47,918 bases of DNA from Acinetobacter lwoffii (GTDB lineage: Bacteria; Pseudomonadota; Gammaproteobacteria; Pseudomonadales; Moraxellaceae), in assembly GCF_019048525.1 (NCBI RefSeq), contig NZ_CP077371.1, forward strand, positions 1 to 47,918, in the 5' to 3' direction. How positions within the stretch are numbered: position 1 is the stretch's first letter; the number at the start of each line of letters is the position of its first letter. The notes beneath the pieces are model-generated. The model searched no databases. It saw only the letters and a program-made list of their open reading frames with translations, and was not told the DNA's origin. Positions 24,298 to 31,070 of the stretch are shown here, in pieces. The position numbers and the translations under genes were made by a program.

Positions 24298-24881
24298 GCG
24301 ACAAAACGTATGGCTATTTTTAACACTAAAACCAGTTAAAAAATATTGAATTTTGAATATTTATAACTATTATTTAAATATCAATAACTTACGCTGCGAC
24401 AAAACGTATAGTTATGATTTTAAGCCTATACAAATATCTTTTTTAGCACCAAAAAATAAAAATCGTTCTTTAATATAATTATTTATATAAAACAACAACT
24501 TATTAGATTGTTAAGAATCTAGTTAATTCCTGAAAAATATATATAATCGTATCCAGTACGCATAATCGCAGGTTTGCGACAAAACGTATAGTTATGCGGG
24601 GAAGTTGCGACAAAACGTATAGTTTTGAGATTGCAGCATGGATTAAGGCTAAAAAATACGCAAAAATATAATATGTTAGAGCTAAACACCTAATTAATTA
24701 CTGATTTTTAAAAATAATTTAGCCATTTTTTGTATGCTGTTGATAAGTCTGTGGATTATTTGCGACAAAACGTATAGGTATGTGACAAAACGTATAGTTG
24801 TAGCGACAAAACGTATAGTTATAGCGACAAAACGTATAGTTATAGCGACAAAACGTATAGTTATAGCGACAAAACGTATAG
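24298..24881 (+). repeat. Iteron array: ten copies of GCGACAAAACGTATAG
   Basis: Copies start at 24298, 24396, 24576, 24607, 24762, 24782, 24803, 24824, 24845 and 24866, all in one direction. The last six are in tandem with a 20-21-bp period (two helical turns). The 24298 copy ends GTATGG and the 24782 copy begins GTGAC; the rest are exact. They are the binding sites of the Rep_3 protein, whose gene reads away to the left. Confidence 0.96.
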
Positions 24882-25250
24882 TTATAGGCTTGTAAACTTA
24901 TGTTTTACAAAAAGAAATTAAGGCTCTTAAACTGTTCTAAACACTCCTAAACTCTATTTAAACTCTTTTTAAACCCGATTCTAGTTTTTTTTAAAAAGTT
25001 TTTAGAAATGTTTAGAAGATTATTAAAGTGATATTTACATGACAAAAAGGGAAGGGATCTTAAAAAAAATATGAGCTTTGATATATACAAACTTTTTACA
25101 AATGTTTTAAATTATTCATTAAAATTTTAAACTTTTTGATATATATTAAAAGCGTTTAAAAATAATTGATGTTTTTGTGTCTTTTACACACAGTTACACT
25201 TCAGTTACATTTTTAAATTAATTATATTTTGTAAGAATCCGCACTTCACT
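24740..25250. other. oriV with near-DnaA box and AT-rich unwinding region
   Basis: A one-mismatch DnaA box TGTGGATTA lies at 24750-24758 just before the tandem iterons. After them, 24900-25250 is very AT-rich, with repeated TAAACTCT-like units (about 24920-24975) suited to melting. No gene is seen between 24104 and 25276. Confidence 0.85.
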
Positions 25251-26229: not shown

Positions 26230-26458
26230 ATATCGGGTCGCCATTTATGAGAAGTAGCATTGCAATAGTATGTTTTAACGTGGGGTTATAACGATGCGTG
26301 GCTCCGTCAGCCTATCAGGTTAAATCGGCAATACTTAGGGGATGTGTCATTTTTTTAGATGACCGCCCTTAGGGTGAGTATTGCCGAAACTCTCTCCACG
26401 TTCACCATCTGCCTGAACGAAGTGAAGGCTGTGGGGAATGTGGAGAGAGTTGAGCGCC
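26230..26458. other. Highly structured intergenic block
   Basis: Two long hairpins lie back to back. CGGCAATACT / AGTATTGCCG encloses a nested GGG...GTCAT/ATGAC...CCC stem (about 26324-26392). AACTCTCTCCAC / GTGGAGAGAGTT encloses GTTCA/TGAAC (about 26393-26450). No gene. It precedes the decayed mob genes and could be a single-strand origin, an oriT relic or a structured RNA. Confidence 0.55.
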
Positions 26459-26558
26459 TTTAGTTTTACAAGATTCATGCCAGTACCTACTAGAATTTAT
26501 ATACCGTGTCATTTGATTAAATTTTTAGTCTGTACGACTGCCTTAATTTTAATAAGTA

Positions 26559-26789
26559 TTGATTATTGCGCTAGGTTTTGTGGGCAAAAGCAAATACAGC
26601 GAGATTCAGACCTTGAACAGCGTTATCAACGAGAAAGAAATGCGAGTCGATCACCTGAACAAATCAGGGGGGAGTCTGAATATCAGCACATGCACCAGTC
26701 AAACAGGCAAGAATCCTCGACTTTGTATTCAGATCAACAAGAAAGCAGGGGAATGGCAGGGCAGTTACATGATTCCAATGGGATACTAG
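26559..26789 (+). pseudogene. Truncated MobB/MbeB remnant
   Basis: It begins inside what would be the membrane span (IIALGFVGKSKYSEIQTLN) with only a TTG start. It runs to a MbeB-like end (LNISTCTSQTG, then a Cys and a closing SYMIPMGY). The rest of the hydrophobic span (VCTTALILIS) is readable in another frame just upstream, so a frameshift near 26555 and an N-terminal deletion are likely. A 3-base gap separates it from mbeD in the same frame. Confidence 0.5.
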
Positions 26790-27277
26790 ATAATGACCGA
26801 ATTAGAAACACAATTATTGAGAATCATCGAAGAACAACAGCAGCAATTACTGGAACAACAAAAGCAGTTGAAACAGCAACAGCAGAGTTTAGAAGTGATG
26901 CAAGGCAAAATTATCCAAGCCTTGTCAGCACAATCAAAGACAATGGAGAGCGTGCAGAAAGACTTAGTGCAAACACAAAAGTCATTAGCGACAACACAGA
27001 CGCAATTTCACGAACTGGAAAGAAATACAGCGACCTATACCGAGCAGATCAATGGCAAAGTCAAAGAGATGAGCCAAATTACAACGAACTACGAGGACGT
27101 ACTGGAGAAAATCTCAACCGTACAGCGTTCAGTCTCGTCACAAGTAGCCAAAGCACAGCAGAATTTGCTCGAAACATCCGAGATATTGAAGCGAATATCA
27201 TCCAAATGAAAGAACGGCAAAAGGAGATGGATAAGCCCCAACCTAAGCAAGATCGGGGCATGAGTTGGGGGATATAA
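26582..27277 (+). pseudogene. C-terminal fragment of a ColE1-type relaxase (mobA)
   Basis: About 232 codons in a frame that overlaps mbeB and mbeD. It is Arg/Gln/Ser-rich, with RDSDLEQRYQRERNASRSP near the start and a RDIEANIIQMKERQ helix near the end. This matches the known arrangement of ColE1-like mob loci, where mbeB and mbeD lie inside the 3' part of the relaxase gene. The catalytic N-terminal half is missing and no sound start exists, so it cannot act as a relaxase. The frame opens at ATG 26438. Confidence 0.5.
26793..27209 (+). CDS. MbeD-like coiled-coil mobilisation protein
   Basis: A 138-residue protein starting MTELETQLLRIIEEQ, the typical MbeD opening, followed by an almost unbroken coiled coil very rich in Gln (QQQQLLEQQKQLKQQQQ). 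It is complete, but it lies inside the decayed relaxase frame and may be a passive survivor. MbeD in ColE1 plasmids supports mobilisation and has been linked to entry exclusion. Without the relaxase a residual exclusion role is the only one I could suggest. Confidence 0.55.
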   Translation: MTELETQLLRIIEEQQQQLLEQQKQLKQQQQSLEVMQGKIIQALSAQSKTMESVQKDLVQTQKSLATTQTQFHELERNTATYTEQINGKVKEMSQITTNYEDVLEKISTVQRSVSSQVAKAQQNLLETSEILKRISSK

Positions 27278-27472
27278 TGTAATATATATATGATCTAGAA
27301 CTAAAAAAGTGCATTAATTGTTATATATTGGTGCTTTTTACACCAACATGGGTCGTTGAATATCATGACACAATGTGACTTTATAAATATTATTTAATTT
27401 TCAACAACTTATATTTTCTAACTTTTGGTATAAAGTTTGCTTAAATAAAAAAAATTTTAATAAGGTTCTTAT

Positions 27473-29092
27473 ATGCTTAGAGATAAATTGGTGATAAATG
27501 TTTCTCATCATGATAGTAGTTATGTTTCTCTTAGTTCTGTGAAAGATTTATTGAATCAGCTCGATATAAATGAAGAAAAAGTACCACAAACCATATTGAA
27601 ATACCTTTATTTATTTTTTCCATTAAATGAAAATGTTAGAGTTAGATTTTATAATTCAAATTTAAGTCTAACTGAATCTATTTCTCCAGATCAAAGAATT
27701 AGATATAGATTTAAAGAAATTTTAGATAAAAATTATATAGCAGTAATACAATATATAAATACATTGTTTAATTGTGATATTAAAGTAAATATAAAAACAA
27801 GAAGAGATTTGGATGAAAATAGTTTAACTTTTTATAGAATTGCAAGAATTATTGGAAAGTGGGATGTAAGTATAGATTATAGTAATTCTGAATATAGTAG
27901 TTATATTAATAATGATGACTTAAAAGTAAATAATTTAATTTTTGATTTTTTAAAATATGATTTTGAAAAAAGTAAATATCATGATCTTATAGATATTGCA
28001 TTTGAATATATAAATGCAGGAGATGCTTTAACAGCATTAAATATTGGAGAAATACTGAAAACTAAATTTCAGGATAAATATATTTGGAATTTGTTATCTA
28101 TATCAGAGTTGATTTTAGGAAATAAAATTAAATCTGAATATTATTCTAATAAATGGGTGGAATCTGATGATGATTTATTTAAAATAGACTCTACTAGAGC
28201 TTTATACTCAAAAGCAATGCTATATGTTAGATTACATTCGAAAGAGTTGTTAGATGTAGAAAAGTCAAAAAATCTTCTGAATGAAGCATATGAGCTTATG
28301 CTTAATAGTACAATAACAGAAGAAAATGATGATTTTGAAAAATTGACTTTTGAAAAAATATTTAATAGAAATGGATATGCTTTAATTTTATTTAAAGAAG
28401 GTAAATTGTTGGATGCTAAACTCCAAATATTAGAATGTCTAGATAATATAAATAAATATCATGGGGATGATATAAATAATAAAATTAATATCCATAAATC
28501 TGTACTTTTATATAACTTAGCTCAATGTTATGAGAAATTAGGAATGATAGATGATGCTATATCAACATTTAAAATTTTACTTGAACTAGATCCTAATATG
28601 GATGAATATTATTTAGATTTATCAAGATGTTATGGTGTATCTGAGCAAGTTGAAAATGCAATATTTGCATGTGAAACGGCAACAAAGATAGAGCCATATA
28701 ATTATCAAAATTGGGCAATGTTAGCATATTGGCAGAATCATATGGGACATTATGATAAATCGTCTAATAGTTACCTTAAAGCTTATAATTTATGTCCAGA
28801 ATATGAAGAGAGACTTAGAAATATTAATAATTATGCTTATAATTTTTTGTTATTAGATGAAAACAATAATTACAGTGATATATTAGGTTTAATTAAAGAT
28901 AGTTTTTATAAAAATTCAATTTTAAATGATGAGAATGAAATTGTAAGAGGGTATTCACTTATGGCTGAGATTTATTTAAGATCAAATGATTATGTTCAAG
29001 CTAAAAATGTAATTAATGATGCTTTAAGTATTTTTGAAAATAATGAGAGCTTAATCAATAATCTTGAATTTATTAATGATTTAACTAACTAA
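27473..29092 (+). CDS. TPR-repeat protein of the peptide/MFS island
   Basis: A 539-residue soluble protein. Residues 1-150 form a domain I do not recognise (VINVSHHDSSYVSLSSVKDL at the start). Residues about 165-525 are tetratricopeptide repeats, clearest at 342-375 (SVLLYNLAQCYEKLGMIDDA), 376-410 and 411-444, and again near 490-522. No HTH, catalytic motif, signal peptide or membrane span. Codon use is foreign: arginine almost only AGA, many ATA, GC far below the plasmid average. The terminator after it is shared with the convergent 25-residue peptide gene. Binding or processing of that peptide is the simplest inference. Confidence 0.75.
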   Translation: MLRDKLVINVSHHDSSYVSLSSVKDLLNQLDINEEKVPQTILKYLYLFFPLNENVRVRFYNSNLSLTESISPDQRIRYRFKEILDKNYIAVIQYINTLFNCDIKVNIKTRRDLDENSLTFYRIARIIGKWDVSIDYSNSEYSSYINNDDLKVNNLIFDFLKYDFEKSKYHDLIDIAFEYINAGDALTALNIGEILKTKFQDKYIWNLLSISELILGNKIKSEYYSNKWVESDDDLFKIDSTRALYSKAMLYVRLHSKELLDVEKSKNLLNEAYELMLNSTITEENDDFEKLTFEKIFNRNGYALILFKEGKLLDAKLQILECLDNINKYHGDDINNKINIHKSVLLYNLAQCYEKLGMIDDAISTFKILLELDPNMDEYYLDLSRCYGVSEQVENAIFACETATKIEPYNYQNWAMLAYWQNHMGHYDKSSNSYLKAYNLCPEYEERLRNINNYAYNFLLLDENNNYSDILGLIKDSFYKNSILNDENEIVRGYSLMAEIYLRSNDYVQAKNVINDALSIFENNESLINNLEFINDLTN

Positions 29093-29103
29093 TAAATTAT
29101 AAT

Positions 29104-29138
29104 AAAAAAATCAGCTAATTAAATTAGCTGATTTTTTT
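29104..29138. terminator. Bidirectional terminator between TPR and peptide genes
   Basis: Perfect 15-bp stem AAAAATCAGCTAATT / AATTAGCTGATTTTT with a one-base centre and long A and T runs. It serves the TPR gene on + and the peptide gene on -. Confidence 0.9.
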
Positions 29139-29149
29139 ATATCATATTA

Positions 29150-29227
29150 TTATGCTTCTACTTTTAAAGCATAAGCAGTTTTGTATGATACTTTAACAAT
29201 AGCAGGTGATGATACTAATAATTTCAT
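29150..29227 (-). CDS. 25-residue peptide gene
   Basis: A short open frame: MKLLVSSPAIV at the start, Tyr at 15 and 19, last residues YALKVEA, then TAA. The support is unusual for such length. AAAAGGAAA stands 8 bases before the ATG. A promoter (TTGATT, 17 bp, TATTAT) lies upstream with a perfect operator-like dyad. A strong terminator follows within 12 bases. It is divergent from an MFS exporter and convergent with a TPR protein. A precursor of a modified or secreted peptide (signal or microcin-like) is inferred; no cysteine and no classical leader-core boundary. Confidence 0.65.
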   Translation of the reverse strand: MKLLVSSPAIVKVSYKTAYALKVEA

Positions 29228-29254
29228 TTTAAGTTTCCTTTTGAGTATTATTTA

Positions 29255-29308
29255 ATACACCATTTTATGGTGTATATTTATAATATAACTAAAAATTTAT
29301 AAAATCAA
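29255..29308 (-). promoter_or_regulatory. Promoter and operator of the peptide gene
   Basis: Minus strand: TTGATT (29303-29308), 17 bp, TATTAT (29280-29285). A perfect dyad ATACACCAT / ATGGTGTAT (29255-29275, 3-base centre) lies where transcription would start. The operator stands in the gap shared with the divergent MFS gene and could control both. A weaker dyad with the same ACACCA half occurs before the TPR gene (TTGGTG / CACCAA, 27328-27346). Confidence 0.7.
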
Positions 29309-29364
29309 ATTTTTTATGTAAAAATAAAGTATAATTATATAATTTTATTTGAAGTTTAAAAATT

Positions 29365-30561
29365 ATGGAAAAGGATTATTTTATAAAAAATTTTGTTTCA
29401 TTTAATATTTTATTTTATTTTGGTATGATAGTCTCTACAACTATAATGCCATTATATTTTAAAGAAAATAATGCCCTGTTTTCTTATGGTTTTGCTTACT
29501 CTGCTATGGCTCTATCTGGTGCTTTATCATTTTTTTACGGAAAAATAGTTGATAAGTATGGTTGGAGAAAAATTATTTTAATTGGTACAATAATTTATTG
29601 TATAGCACTTTTTGGAAGAATCTTCACAAATATTTATTTATCTGTTTTTTTTGCCTTTATAGGTGGTTTAGGTGCATCATTAACTTTACTCAGCATTCGC
29701 TCATGGATGGTTGAAAAAAATAATAATGAAACATTAAAAAAATCTGCAATAATTAGAAATATGGTAGTTCAATTTTCTACATTTATTGGAATGCTATTAG
29801 TTTTAATTTTAAGTTTTTTTAAGGATGAAATAAATAATATATATTTTTATATACTTGTTTTTTCTAGTTTTATTATTTTTCTTTCAAGTTTGTTTTTCTT
29901 TTTTTATAAGAAAAATATAGATAAAAATATAGATAATAAAAATAATTTAAAAGAAGTAAAAAATTTTAAGAAAATAGAGTGGTCTATTGTTGTTCTATGT
30001 ATTCTCATTAGCTCTGTTATATCGGGTCTTTATACTGGAATAATAAAACCTTATATTATTATAATTCTTGTAGATCAAGGCTTGTCTGATAGTTACTCAT
30101 TAGTAATTTATATGACTATGACTTTTGTACAAATATTATCAACATCTATTCTCTTAAAAAATAGTAATAAATTTAATCATAGTTCAATTAATTCATTAAT
30201 ATTCTTTGAACTAATGCTTTGTTTATTATATGTTTTTATGTTTTTATCCATAAGTTTTAATTGGGGGCTATTTCTATTTGTTACGTTTTTTTTAATAAGA
30301 TCCATAATTTTATCTATTACGACATGCTTTGAAGAAATTTTACATTACGAATTTCTTGATAAAGATATTATGGCTTCACTTATAGGTTTTGTTCAAACTT
30401 GTTTTTTAATAGGGGATTCTTTAGGCTCACTAATATCAACTATTTTAATTAAAAATAATTATGCTTTTATCTTTATTATTTCTGGAATTCTAGTTTTTTT
30501 TAATGTTTTAGTTTTTTTTAAGTTAAAAAAACTTTCTGTTAGTAGAAAAATTACGGTTTAA
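29365..30561 (+). CDS. MFS transporter, probable peptide exporter
   Basis: A 398-residue, 12-span major facilitator protein. The loop 2-3 motif is GKIVDKYGWRK and the span-4 region is GGLGASLTLLSIRSWMVE. A Lys/Asn-rich cytoplasmic loop (about 190-210) divides the two halves. Same AGA/ATA-rich, AT-rich coding as the TPR gene, so both came together. Divergent from the 25-residue peptide gene across a shared operator. By analogy with MccC of the microcin C system, it could export the peptide and give immunity. That comparison rests on layout, not on sequence. Confidence 0.78.
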   Translation: MEKDYFIKNFVSFNILFYFGMIVSTTIMPLYFKENNALFSYGFAYSAMALSGALSFFYGKIVDKYGWRKIILIGTIIYCIALFGRIFTNIYLSVFFAFIGGLGASLTLLSIRSWMVEKNNNETLKKSAIIRNMVVQFSTFIGMLLVLILSFFKDEINNIYFYILVFSSFIIFLSSLFFFFYKKNIDKNIDNKNNLKEVKNFKKIEWSIVVLCILISSVISGLYTGIIKPYIIIILVDQGLSDSYSLVIYMTMTFVQILSTSILLKNSNKFNHSSINSLIFFELMLCLLYVFMFLSISFNWGLFLFVTFFLIRSIILSITTCFEEILHYEFLDKDIMASLIGFVQTCFLIGDSLGSLISTILIKNNYAFIFIISGILVFFNVLVFFKLKKLSVSRKITV

Positions 30562-30592: not shown

Positions 30593-30817
30593 TTAGATAT
30601 TTAAGTGTTTTATAACAGCTTCTTGTAATTCATCTTTAGATAGTCTTTTCAATTCTTCTATGGCAGCTTTTAATATAATTGATCTATTTGCCCTTGCTAC
30701 TCGACAATTTATCAAGAGTTCATCTATATCTCTATCGACATCCTCTGTAAGTGAAAAAGTAAGTCTTCGATAGGTTGTTTTATGGCTTTTTAGTTTGCTA
30801 AAGGGAATAAGTGTCAC
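30593..30817 (-). CDS. Ribbon-helix-helix DNA-binding protein
   Basis: A 74-residue protein with a CopG/ParG-like RHH core: YRRLTFSLTEDVDRDIDEL, then an SIILKAAIEELKRLS helix. The only in-frame start is GTG 30817 without a ribosome site, so the N-terminus is uncertain and the gene may be a fragment. It reads away from a GC-richer structured block (30818-31070), which could contain its target. Possible roles are relaxosome accessory, antitoxin or repressor. Confidence 0.55.
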   Translation of the reverse strand: MTLIPFSKLKSHKTTYRRLTFSLTEDVDRDIDELLINCRVARANRSIILKAAIEELKRLSKDELQEAVIKHLNI

Positions 30818-31070
30818 TGGTGCAACGTAGTGATAGTGAGATCCGAGAGGAAAGAGCTAAACCGTTACAGGGGAATCCCACAAAAGCGGAACGTTGAGAG
30901 TAGTTGTATAGGTCAGTTAAGTTGCATGTTGGGGAAACCCTCGCAGAGATACCGCCATACTTCGACAGGGAGCGTGTGGGGAGAGGTGCAAAACTTTTAG
31001 TCCTTGTCTGCCATGTCAGCAAAAACATGGTGCGGATACGACCCCTTTTAATAACCTCATATTATGTACT
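30818..31070. other. GC-rich intergenic block with palindromes
   Basis: About 250 bp of much higher GC than the flanks, between the RHH gene and the 236-bp repeat. It holds CCATGT / ACATGG (31011-31030) and several purine-rich GGGGA/GAGAGG runs. A 76-codon frame on the minus strand has no ribosome site and unlikely composition. Probably a site (oriT or origin relic) or a structured RNA. Confidence 0.45.

Follow-up and report, generated by a model that had tools for sequence, protein, structure and literature searches.

The gene clusters of microcin C and pantocin A (mccA/B/C, paaP/A) combine a very short precursor with an exporter of the major facilitator superfamily (MFS), and lasso-peptide clusters with prolyl oligopeptidase-like enzymes are known as well. 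Excerpts from one publication state that the M50 and prolyl oligopeptidase families act in leader removal from ribosomally synthesized and post-translationally modified peptides (RiPPs) (PMC10885120). Here we analyzed an island in a stretch of 47,918 nucleotides from Acinetobacter lwoffii (contig NZ_CP077371.1, in the following "the window") that consists of a gene for a tetratricopeptide repeat (TPR) protein, a 25-codon frame and an MFS gene. The island probably belongs to an undescribed type of exported-peptide cassette that is RiPP-like, and no such system was named in the searches made. If this is true, it adds a peptide family that is missed by annotation because its genes code for only some 20-40 residues.

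The island and its 25-codon frame

The TPR gene (27473-29092, plus strand) encodes 539 amino acids and the MFS gene (29365-30561, plus strand) a proposed exporter of 398 amino acids; the 25-codon frame for the peptide MKLLVSSPAIVKVSYKTAYALKVEA is located between them on the minus strand (29150-29227). All three were found where the original prediction had placed them, and Pfam detected TPR repeats in the 539-residue protein and MFS_1 in the 398-residue protein. The twelve membrane spans claimed for the latter were not confirmed, as a simple hydropathy scan gave overlapping stretches and no clean count. The block is indeed very AT-rich and unlike its surroundings, with a G+C content of 23.2% in the TPR gene, 16.5% in the gap and 22.1% in the MFS gene versus 36.6-41.5% in three surrounding stretches. 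The proposed restriction of arginine codons to AGA holds for the TPR gene (18 of 18), but not for the MFS gene, which contains one CGC besides five AGA; the peptide gene is devoid of arginine codons.

An island with 99.8% identity is present on the Acinetobacter lwoffii plasmid pAVAci14, whose gene table in PLSDB, which is incomplete, includes the TPR and MFS genes and lacks the peptide gene. A second, decayed copy in the host was considered and rejected: contig C4 of the same assembly (L068 in G000, 24.3 kb) is 98.4% identical, with 25 mismatches and 128 gap openings over 10 kb, and is taken for a duplicate contig of this plasmid region that is rich in errors.

Altogether, 43 loci were examined: eight plasmid records, 32 genome loci, two loci of the window's family and the window itself. 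They represent 42 distinct loci, as the window and L001 share the cassette, and all match the TPR profile, the criterion by which they were found. Thirteen of 21 plasmid records were left out, seven of them near-duplicates and six distant matches. Related peptides adjoin homologous TPR and MFS genes in the genomes G208 and G214 and in Pantoea, Klebsiella, Providencia, Vibrio, Streptomyces, Arthrobacter and Bacillus. The set extends beyond AT-rich groups, as the same genes occur in Streptomyces and Arthrobacter. Upstream of TPR homologues with 20-41% identity to the window protein we found frames of 20-29 codons preceded by ribosome sites, encoding for example MKMIKRKPSAKRVDFSVMYGGTN in Pantoea, MKLIKAAPAVKKVTFSVMYNAPV in Streptomyces and MKLVKSDVKIKKVKFSVMYGGKVITP in Bacillus.

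AT-rich DNA abounds in short frames with purine-rich upstream stretches, and the 25-codon frame might have arisen by chance beside an ordinary pair of TPR and drug-efflux genes. A position profile was built from 16 peptides of other loci, none from Acinetobacter, and used to rank the 1,079 window frames of 19-60 codons, nested starts included. The peptide ranks first with 17.7 bits, the runner-up reaching 6.1, and a score as high was reached by 21 of 200,000 sequences shuffled from its own letters. After removal of the two same-family peptides from the profile it is still first (18.7 versus 7.3 for the next frame; 16 of 200,000 shuffles are equal). A chance frame was ruled out by this ranking, and we give that explanation next to no probability. 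In a gapped variant of the profile each locus was scored with its own peptide left out. A frame scoring above 20 was found in 20 of the 24 distinct loci that have both the TPR and the MFS gene, and additionally in Streptobacillus, the best score elsewhere being 14.8; since close relatives remained in the training set, the fair cases are the window (20.6) and L066 (20.7).

The consensus of the peptides is MKLIKxxPxxKKVxFSVMY followed by a short variable tail, and all 14 near-type peptides listed, the window's included, have a tyrosine at position 19. For codons 2-19 the ratio of nonsynonymous to synonymous differences (pN/pS) is 0.15 in five Streptomyces loci, 0.04 in three Arthrobacter-type loci and 0.15 in five Enterobacterales loci, which points to purifying selection on the peptide in these three clades. 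The L066/L067 pair (two nonsynonymous differences, no synonymous one) and two Streptacidiphilus copies (one synonymous, no nonsynonymous) differ at too few sites to judge. The original prediction had asked whether homologues of the TPR and MFS genes occur without a conserved short frame; 20 of the 24 distinct loci have a clear frame, the frame shows amino-acid conservation, and the view that the peptide gene forms a unit with its two neighbors withstood this check. Judged by profile and codon pattern, we regard the frame at 29150-29227 as a gene. By eye, the peptide has no hydrophobic core, i.e., no signal peptide was recognised (no predictor was used). None of ten peptides scored above the cut-off in an NCBIfam scan; the peptide of L031 weakly matches the CLI_3235 bacteriocin precursor model (E 0.034, 14.3 bits versus a cut-off of 26).

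Most of the control elements proposed for the peptide gene were found. A ribosome binding site region, AAAAGGAAA, lies directly upstream (29228-29247, minus strand), and the equivalent place in pAVAci14, G208 and G214 reads AAAAGGAGA. Between the convergent TPR and peptide genes, a stem at 29102-29140 beats shuffles in folding on both strands (z-scores -8.07 and -5.76), as expected for a bidirectional terminator. An operator-like dyad of nine pairs with a 3-nt loop is located between the divergent peptide and MFS genes (29255-29275). A perfect match to its 17-base core was found nowhere but here and on the duplicate contig of the same genome, and two more host sites match it with one mismatch. 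By eye, G208 shows a dyad of different sequence at a similar place, and its locus L067 likewise combines a terminator towards the TPR gene with this dyad towards the MFS gene. The promoter is a weak prediction in such AT-rich DNA: 44 promoter-like sites were observed in the region compared to 32.5 (standard deviation 5.4) in shuffles.

In 15 of the 24 distinct TPR and MFS loci the genes for peptide, TPR protein, MFS protein and an S9-like peptidase follow each other in one direction. The window, G208 (L067) and G214 (L066) have the peptide gene in inverted orientation between the other two genes; all three are of the same family, G208 and G214 belonging to another genus, and the TPR gene of L067 is split into two frames. 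Tandem copies of the peptide gene are present in Exiguobacterium (three, identical) and Streptacidiphilus (two). The frame could be a mere regulatory leader (upstream open reading frame) of the TPR gene, since it lies directly upstream and co-directional in most loci. This is very improbable given the inverted frame with its own ribosome site in the window, G208 and G214, the strong terminator in the window, the two, three or 8-11 copies elsewhere and the conservation of amino acids beyond silent sites; a leader peptide acting in cis was ruled out by the layout in the window, G208 and G214.

A further search yielded seven full-length matches, all with a peptide; five of them are DNA of earlier loci, and the two truly new ones are Streptomycetaceae loci (L074 and L079). 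The Bacilli locus L105 also has a peptide, and in the partial match L106 no peptide was found.

The TPR protein, its partner genes and distant relatives

The fold of the TPR protein was modelled: residues 1-165 are predicted to form a small alpha/beta domain and residues 165-539 a TPR superhelix that resembles those of peptide-binding TPR proteins. The motif FNRNG (residues 297-301; 28361-28375, plus strand) is invariant in all 29 aligned family members, the window included. We define the FNRNG-TPR cassette by this motif, an adjoining near-type peptide and a transporter or protease gene, all of which are found in the window. Pfam detected no helix-turn-helix (HTH) domain in the TPR protein, and the predicted N-terminal domain is neither HTH nor Rap-type helical; this domain possibly has an unrecognised activity. 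The only NCBIfam model that exceeded its cut-off among the TPR proteins scanned is the generic domain model NF047558, which did so in distant members. According to excerpts on the ammosamide pathway, this pathway includes a TPR protein of unknown role (PMC12424672). In the biphenomycin cluster, again as given in excerpts, a gene first called TPR turned out to encode an arginase-like enzyme (PMC12707348). TPR annotation alone is therefore not to be trusted, and for the island the modelled fold is used.

In 24 of the 42 distinct loci the TPR gene is accompanied by a gene for an MFS protein of the window's type, and an S9-like hydrolase is encoded in 17 of 42, which include 16 of the 24 TPR and MFS loci (the MFS profile was trained on 11 of these loci, the window among them, and the S9 profile on seven). 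Pfam assigns the Klebsiella and Seinonella hydrolases to Peptidase_S9 and that of Streptobacillus only to the alpha/beta hydrolases. The island in the window has no S9-like peptidase. Protein distances over 19 loci are correlated (Mantel test, p 0.0001 each) with r 0.97 for TPR-MFS, 0.67 for TPR-peptide and 0.70 for MFS-peptide, which indicates that the TPR and MFS proteins co-diverge.

Other loci have different partner genes. ATP-binding cassette (ABC) genes replace the MFS gene in Streptobacillus, and the MFS proteins of Exiguobacterium and Bacillus badius fall outside the profile; both loci also encode O-methyltransferases, which are 50% identical to each other. The nearest solved structures to the ThiF protein of Exiguobacterium are MccB and PaaA. 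This locus on the Exiguobacterium plasmid pE73 (L007, 3349-5799) comprises the MccB/PaaA-like ThiF gene, genes for an 84-aa protein and the O-methyltransferase and the three identical precursors, and probably represents an expanded form of the cassette. The Crocinitomix locus has a methyltransferase gene that overlaps the one for the TPR protein, and a 44-residue frame upstream, picked by eye, ends in ...LNKSITNLHTIKGGTGNLPKYNNPNNSLD; we take it to recall Bacteroidota RiPP leaders. A Bacilli locus (L121, 5824-11063) encodes the precursor MKLIKKSIQKPKPNMSVMYCYKNSGPIGL, a TPR protein and a 1,198-aa ABC exporter instead of an MFS protein.

The peptide might alternatively be a scaffold for a small molecule, as in pearlin or microcin C pathways, with its C-terminal end built up, released and exported by the MFS protein. 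M50-like and ThiF proteins encoded in related loci are similar to proteins of the peptide-scaffold and peptide-nucleotide pathways presented in excerpts of one publication (PMC10885120), and the very short tails of the near group would fit. Against it, no building enzyme was recognised among the eight proteins scanned around the island, which gave no Pfam match to ThiF or to an M50 protease, and a ThiF gene was seen in a single locus (Exiguobacterium), the neighbors of the 42 distinct loci having been scanned in part. We regard a scaffold as distinctly unlikely.

Fourteen loci encode larger TPR proteins; they stem from Herpetosiphon, other Chloroflexota, Hassallia, Lysobacterales, Myxococcota and one Thermoanaerobaculum (phylum and class names of the loci are, except where stated in the record, those we assume to apply). 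In 13 of them the motif is FNRNG, FNRNA or FNLNG, and none was recorded for L025. A gene of family F3 directly precedes the TPR gene in nine of 14 loci; all three F3 proteins tested match Peptidase_M50, one below the cut-off, and the Herpetosiphon M50-like protein matches the daptide model far below its cut-off. In a pattern search, 13 of the 14 loci yielded peptides of the kind MKKITIRKAETLKTTAAFYAGGC followed by a tail, and Thermoanaerobaculum yielded none. Four Herpetosiphon genomes each have 8-11 tandem precursor copies with 8-11 distinct tails, followed by the M50-like and FNRNG-TPR genes (L033 2558-4666, L034 2783-4628, L035 3045-4628, L037 2995-4637). Residues 1-18 of these precursors are 86-89% alike and the remainder 39-41%, so that they resemble precursors composed of leader and core; the arrays look like natural libraries.

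A third branch (L118, L119 and L120; Streptomycetaceae and Bacilli) has TPR proteins of approximately 730 aa with a neighbor of about 400 aa, which is M50-like in one of three loci (Pfam E 4e-4, below the cut-off). Peptides of the type MKKITVxKTExxKLTS... were found in two of the three fetched loci; these three were fetched with wider context, most of the larger TPR proteins being viewed with short flanks only. Comparison of the N-terminal domains, with E-values per single comparison, showed the two distant branches to be related (probability 98.5%, E 3e-15) and linked the near group weakly to the Herpetosiphon type (76%, E 2e-5) and hardly to the third branch (15.6%, E 0.002).

These data also bear on the proposal that the peptide is a cell-cell signal in the manner of RRNPP systems, in which case the MFS protein would export it and the TPR protein would read it after re-import or sensing. 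The TPR superhelix beside a small peptide gene suggests this reading, to which we assign a small probability. The N-terminal domain of the TPR protein is predicted to be a small alpha/beta domain, the peptides show by eye no signal sequence, and arrays of 8-11 differing tails suit a product library better than one pheromone. Furthermore, the gene families common to many loci are TPR, MFS, S9-like and M50-like, with no regulator recognised among them; one may still be hidden in the few small shared families F4, F5, F10 and F11. The original prediction had offered two readings, an exported or modified peptide and a signal read by the TPR protein. The related loci favor the former, and membership in RRNPP is unsupported; signalling as a function, as distinct from this membership, stays among the candidate roles.

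Mobility and distribution

The island is flanked by the ends of a small mobilizable plasmid. The left end (26292-26525, plus strand) matches pBspH14 over its whole length and the 4.1 kb plasmid pAJOLS1.1 from position 566 on (26292-26522); the right end (30802-31043, plus strand) meets the left end at position 566 in pAJOLS1.1. Between them the window has the 3' part of the relaxase gene mobA (26546-27277, plus strand; the rest is deleted) and the peptide island, where the corresponding slot of pAJOLS1.1 contains aadA27. The cassette appears to have travelled as cargo of a small mobilizable plasmid, which then became part of a larger plasmid; the window copy seems to have lost mobC and about 60% of mobA afterwards. 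At the site of the integrated plasmid (26292-31043), pAVAci14 retains about 1.1 kb more than the window. Directly after the MFS gene, the minus strand (30593-30817) encodes a protein of 74 aa that weakly matches a ribbon-helix-helix model (E 0.05); it could be a plasmid protein or a regulator. A frame of repeated TKRIVIA units close to the replication gene (24734-24895) resembles plasmid-origin iterons. PADLOC gave no match to a defence system at E<=0.01 for four proteins.

The distribution is sparse. In the window's family three of 348 genomes match at E 3e-80 or better and 53 of 348 at 1e-10; 50 of these 53 were set aside as generic repeats, their matches covering mostly repeat segments. Two of 394 genomes match in the order of Providencia, one being the search centre itself and the other, G600, being set aside, and a class-level search matched one of 369 genomes, namely the window's own. 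At E 1e-40, matches were obtained for 38 of 394 genomes of the Streptomyces family and for 14 of 398 of the Seinonella class, mostly with the larger third-branch proteins. Since 3-4 candidates were scored per genome, these counts are lower bounds. A single IMG/VR scan with one pattern found no confirmed relative in phages.

Proposed function and comparison with known systems

The observed basis for an exported-peptide cassette is the gene set, its conservation and co-divergence, the constant/variable pattern in distant relatives and the predicted peptide-binding-like TPR superhelix. An exported or modified peptide is favored because related loci contain tandem leader-type precursors, an MccB/PaaA relative, methyltransferases and S9- or M50-like peptidases. 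Our inferences concern binding, the direction of export, processing and the role of the product as a bacteriocin-like agent or a signal. The 25-residue peptide would be a ribosomal precursor whose mostly lysine-rich, conserved N-terminal part, ending at Tyr19, serves as leader or recognition part, the short variable tail being the core or close to the matured end. The groove of the TPR superhelix may bind this precursor around the conserved residues Y245, R253, FNRNG and Y347-N348, and the TPR protein could make it available to processing or modification as well as to the MFS protein; the latter would export the product and may confer self-protection. In relatives the leader would be removed by the S9-like peptidase (most TPR and MFS relatives) or the M50-like protease (distant ones); in the minimal form of the window it might be cut by a host peptidase, or the peptide might be exported whole.

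Tentatively, the cassettes of approximately eight phyla might together form a new class of ribosomal peptide natural products, in which the FNRNG-TPR protein, not known as a modifying enzyme, is the sole constant component; we hold this wider reading for possible rather than probable. With similar reserve, its small N-terminal domain may be weakly related to that of larger, possibly ATPase-derived TPR proteins. It is equally conceivable, with no firmer commitment on our part, that the TPR protein recognises a leader ending near the fixed tyrosine and performs or scaffolds a step before MFS or ABC export or M50-like release.

Several observations weigh against the exported-peptide reading. By profile, four of the 24 TPR and MFS loci (L005, L019, L027 and L036) lack a clear near-type peptide; L005, L027 and L036 offer only weak or eye-picked candidates and L019 none. 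The proposed Exiguobacterium peptide is outside the best three of the profile, that of Listeria is second with 5.3, and that of Bacillus badius scores low with 8.8. Some divergent peptides have the tyrosine at 17, 18 or 20, others at 19. Near-type tails comprise merely 2-7 residues, the split into constant and variable parts is clear in distant relatives only, and homology between near-type and distant peptides rests solely on the length to the tyrosine and on lysines. Likeness to TPR structures does not show function. In addition, Pfam and NCBIfam recognised no modifying enzyme among the eight proteins scanned around the island, as had been claimed before, so that the cassette may not be a RiPP system in the strict sense.

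The FNRNG-TPR protein provides a searchable handle for further members, and the minimal cassette, with three genes on one plasmid, makes product, TPR role and activity directly testable.

Compared with known systems, the S9-like peptidase beside an exporter in 16 of 24 TPR and MFS loci recalls class III lanthipeptide and lasso clusters with their prolyl oligopeptidase-like enzymes; however, the window island has no S9 gene, and neither a cyclase nor a lanthionine synthetase was found in the scanned neighbors. Distant relatives combine a TPR protein, short precursors and an M50-like protein in the manner of the daptide, pearlin and epipeptide (M50) pathways, whereas the island has an MFS gene, no M50 match and no hallmark enzyme in the scanned neighbors. 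With the RRNPP systems (NprR, Rap, PlcR) the island shares a TPR superhelix beside a small peptide gene. It differs from them in that its TPR protein has no predicted HTH or Rap-type N-terminus, the precursor has by eye no signal peptide, and exporter and peptidases go with the set in its relatives. Microcin C and pantocin A are similar in their short precursor and MFS protein, to which the Exiguobacterium locus adds a ThiF enzyme of the MccB/PaaA family; in the island, where the scanned proteins gave no ThiF match, the constant partner of the peptide is instead the TPR protein.

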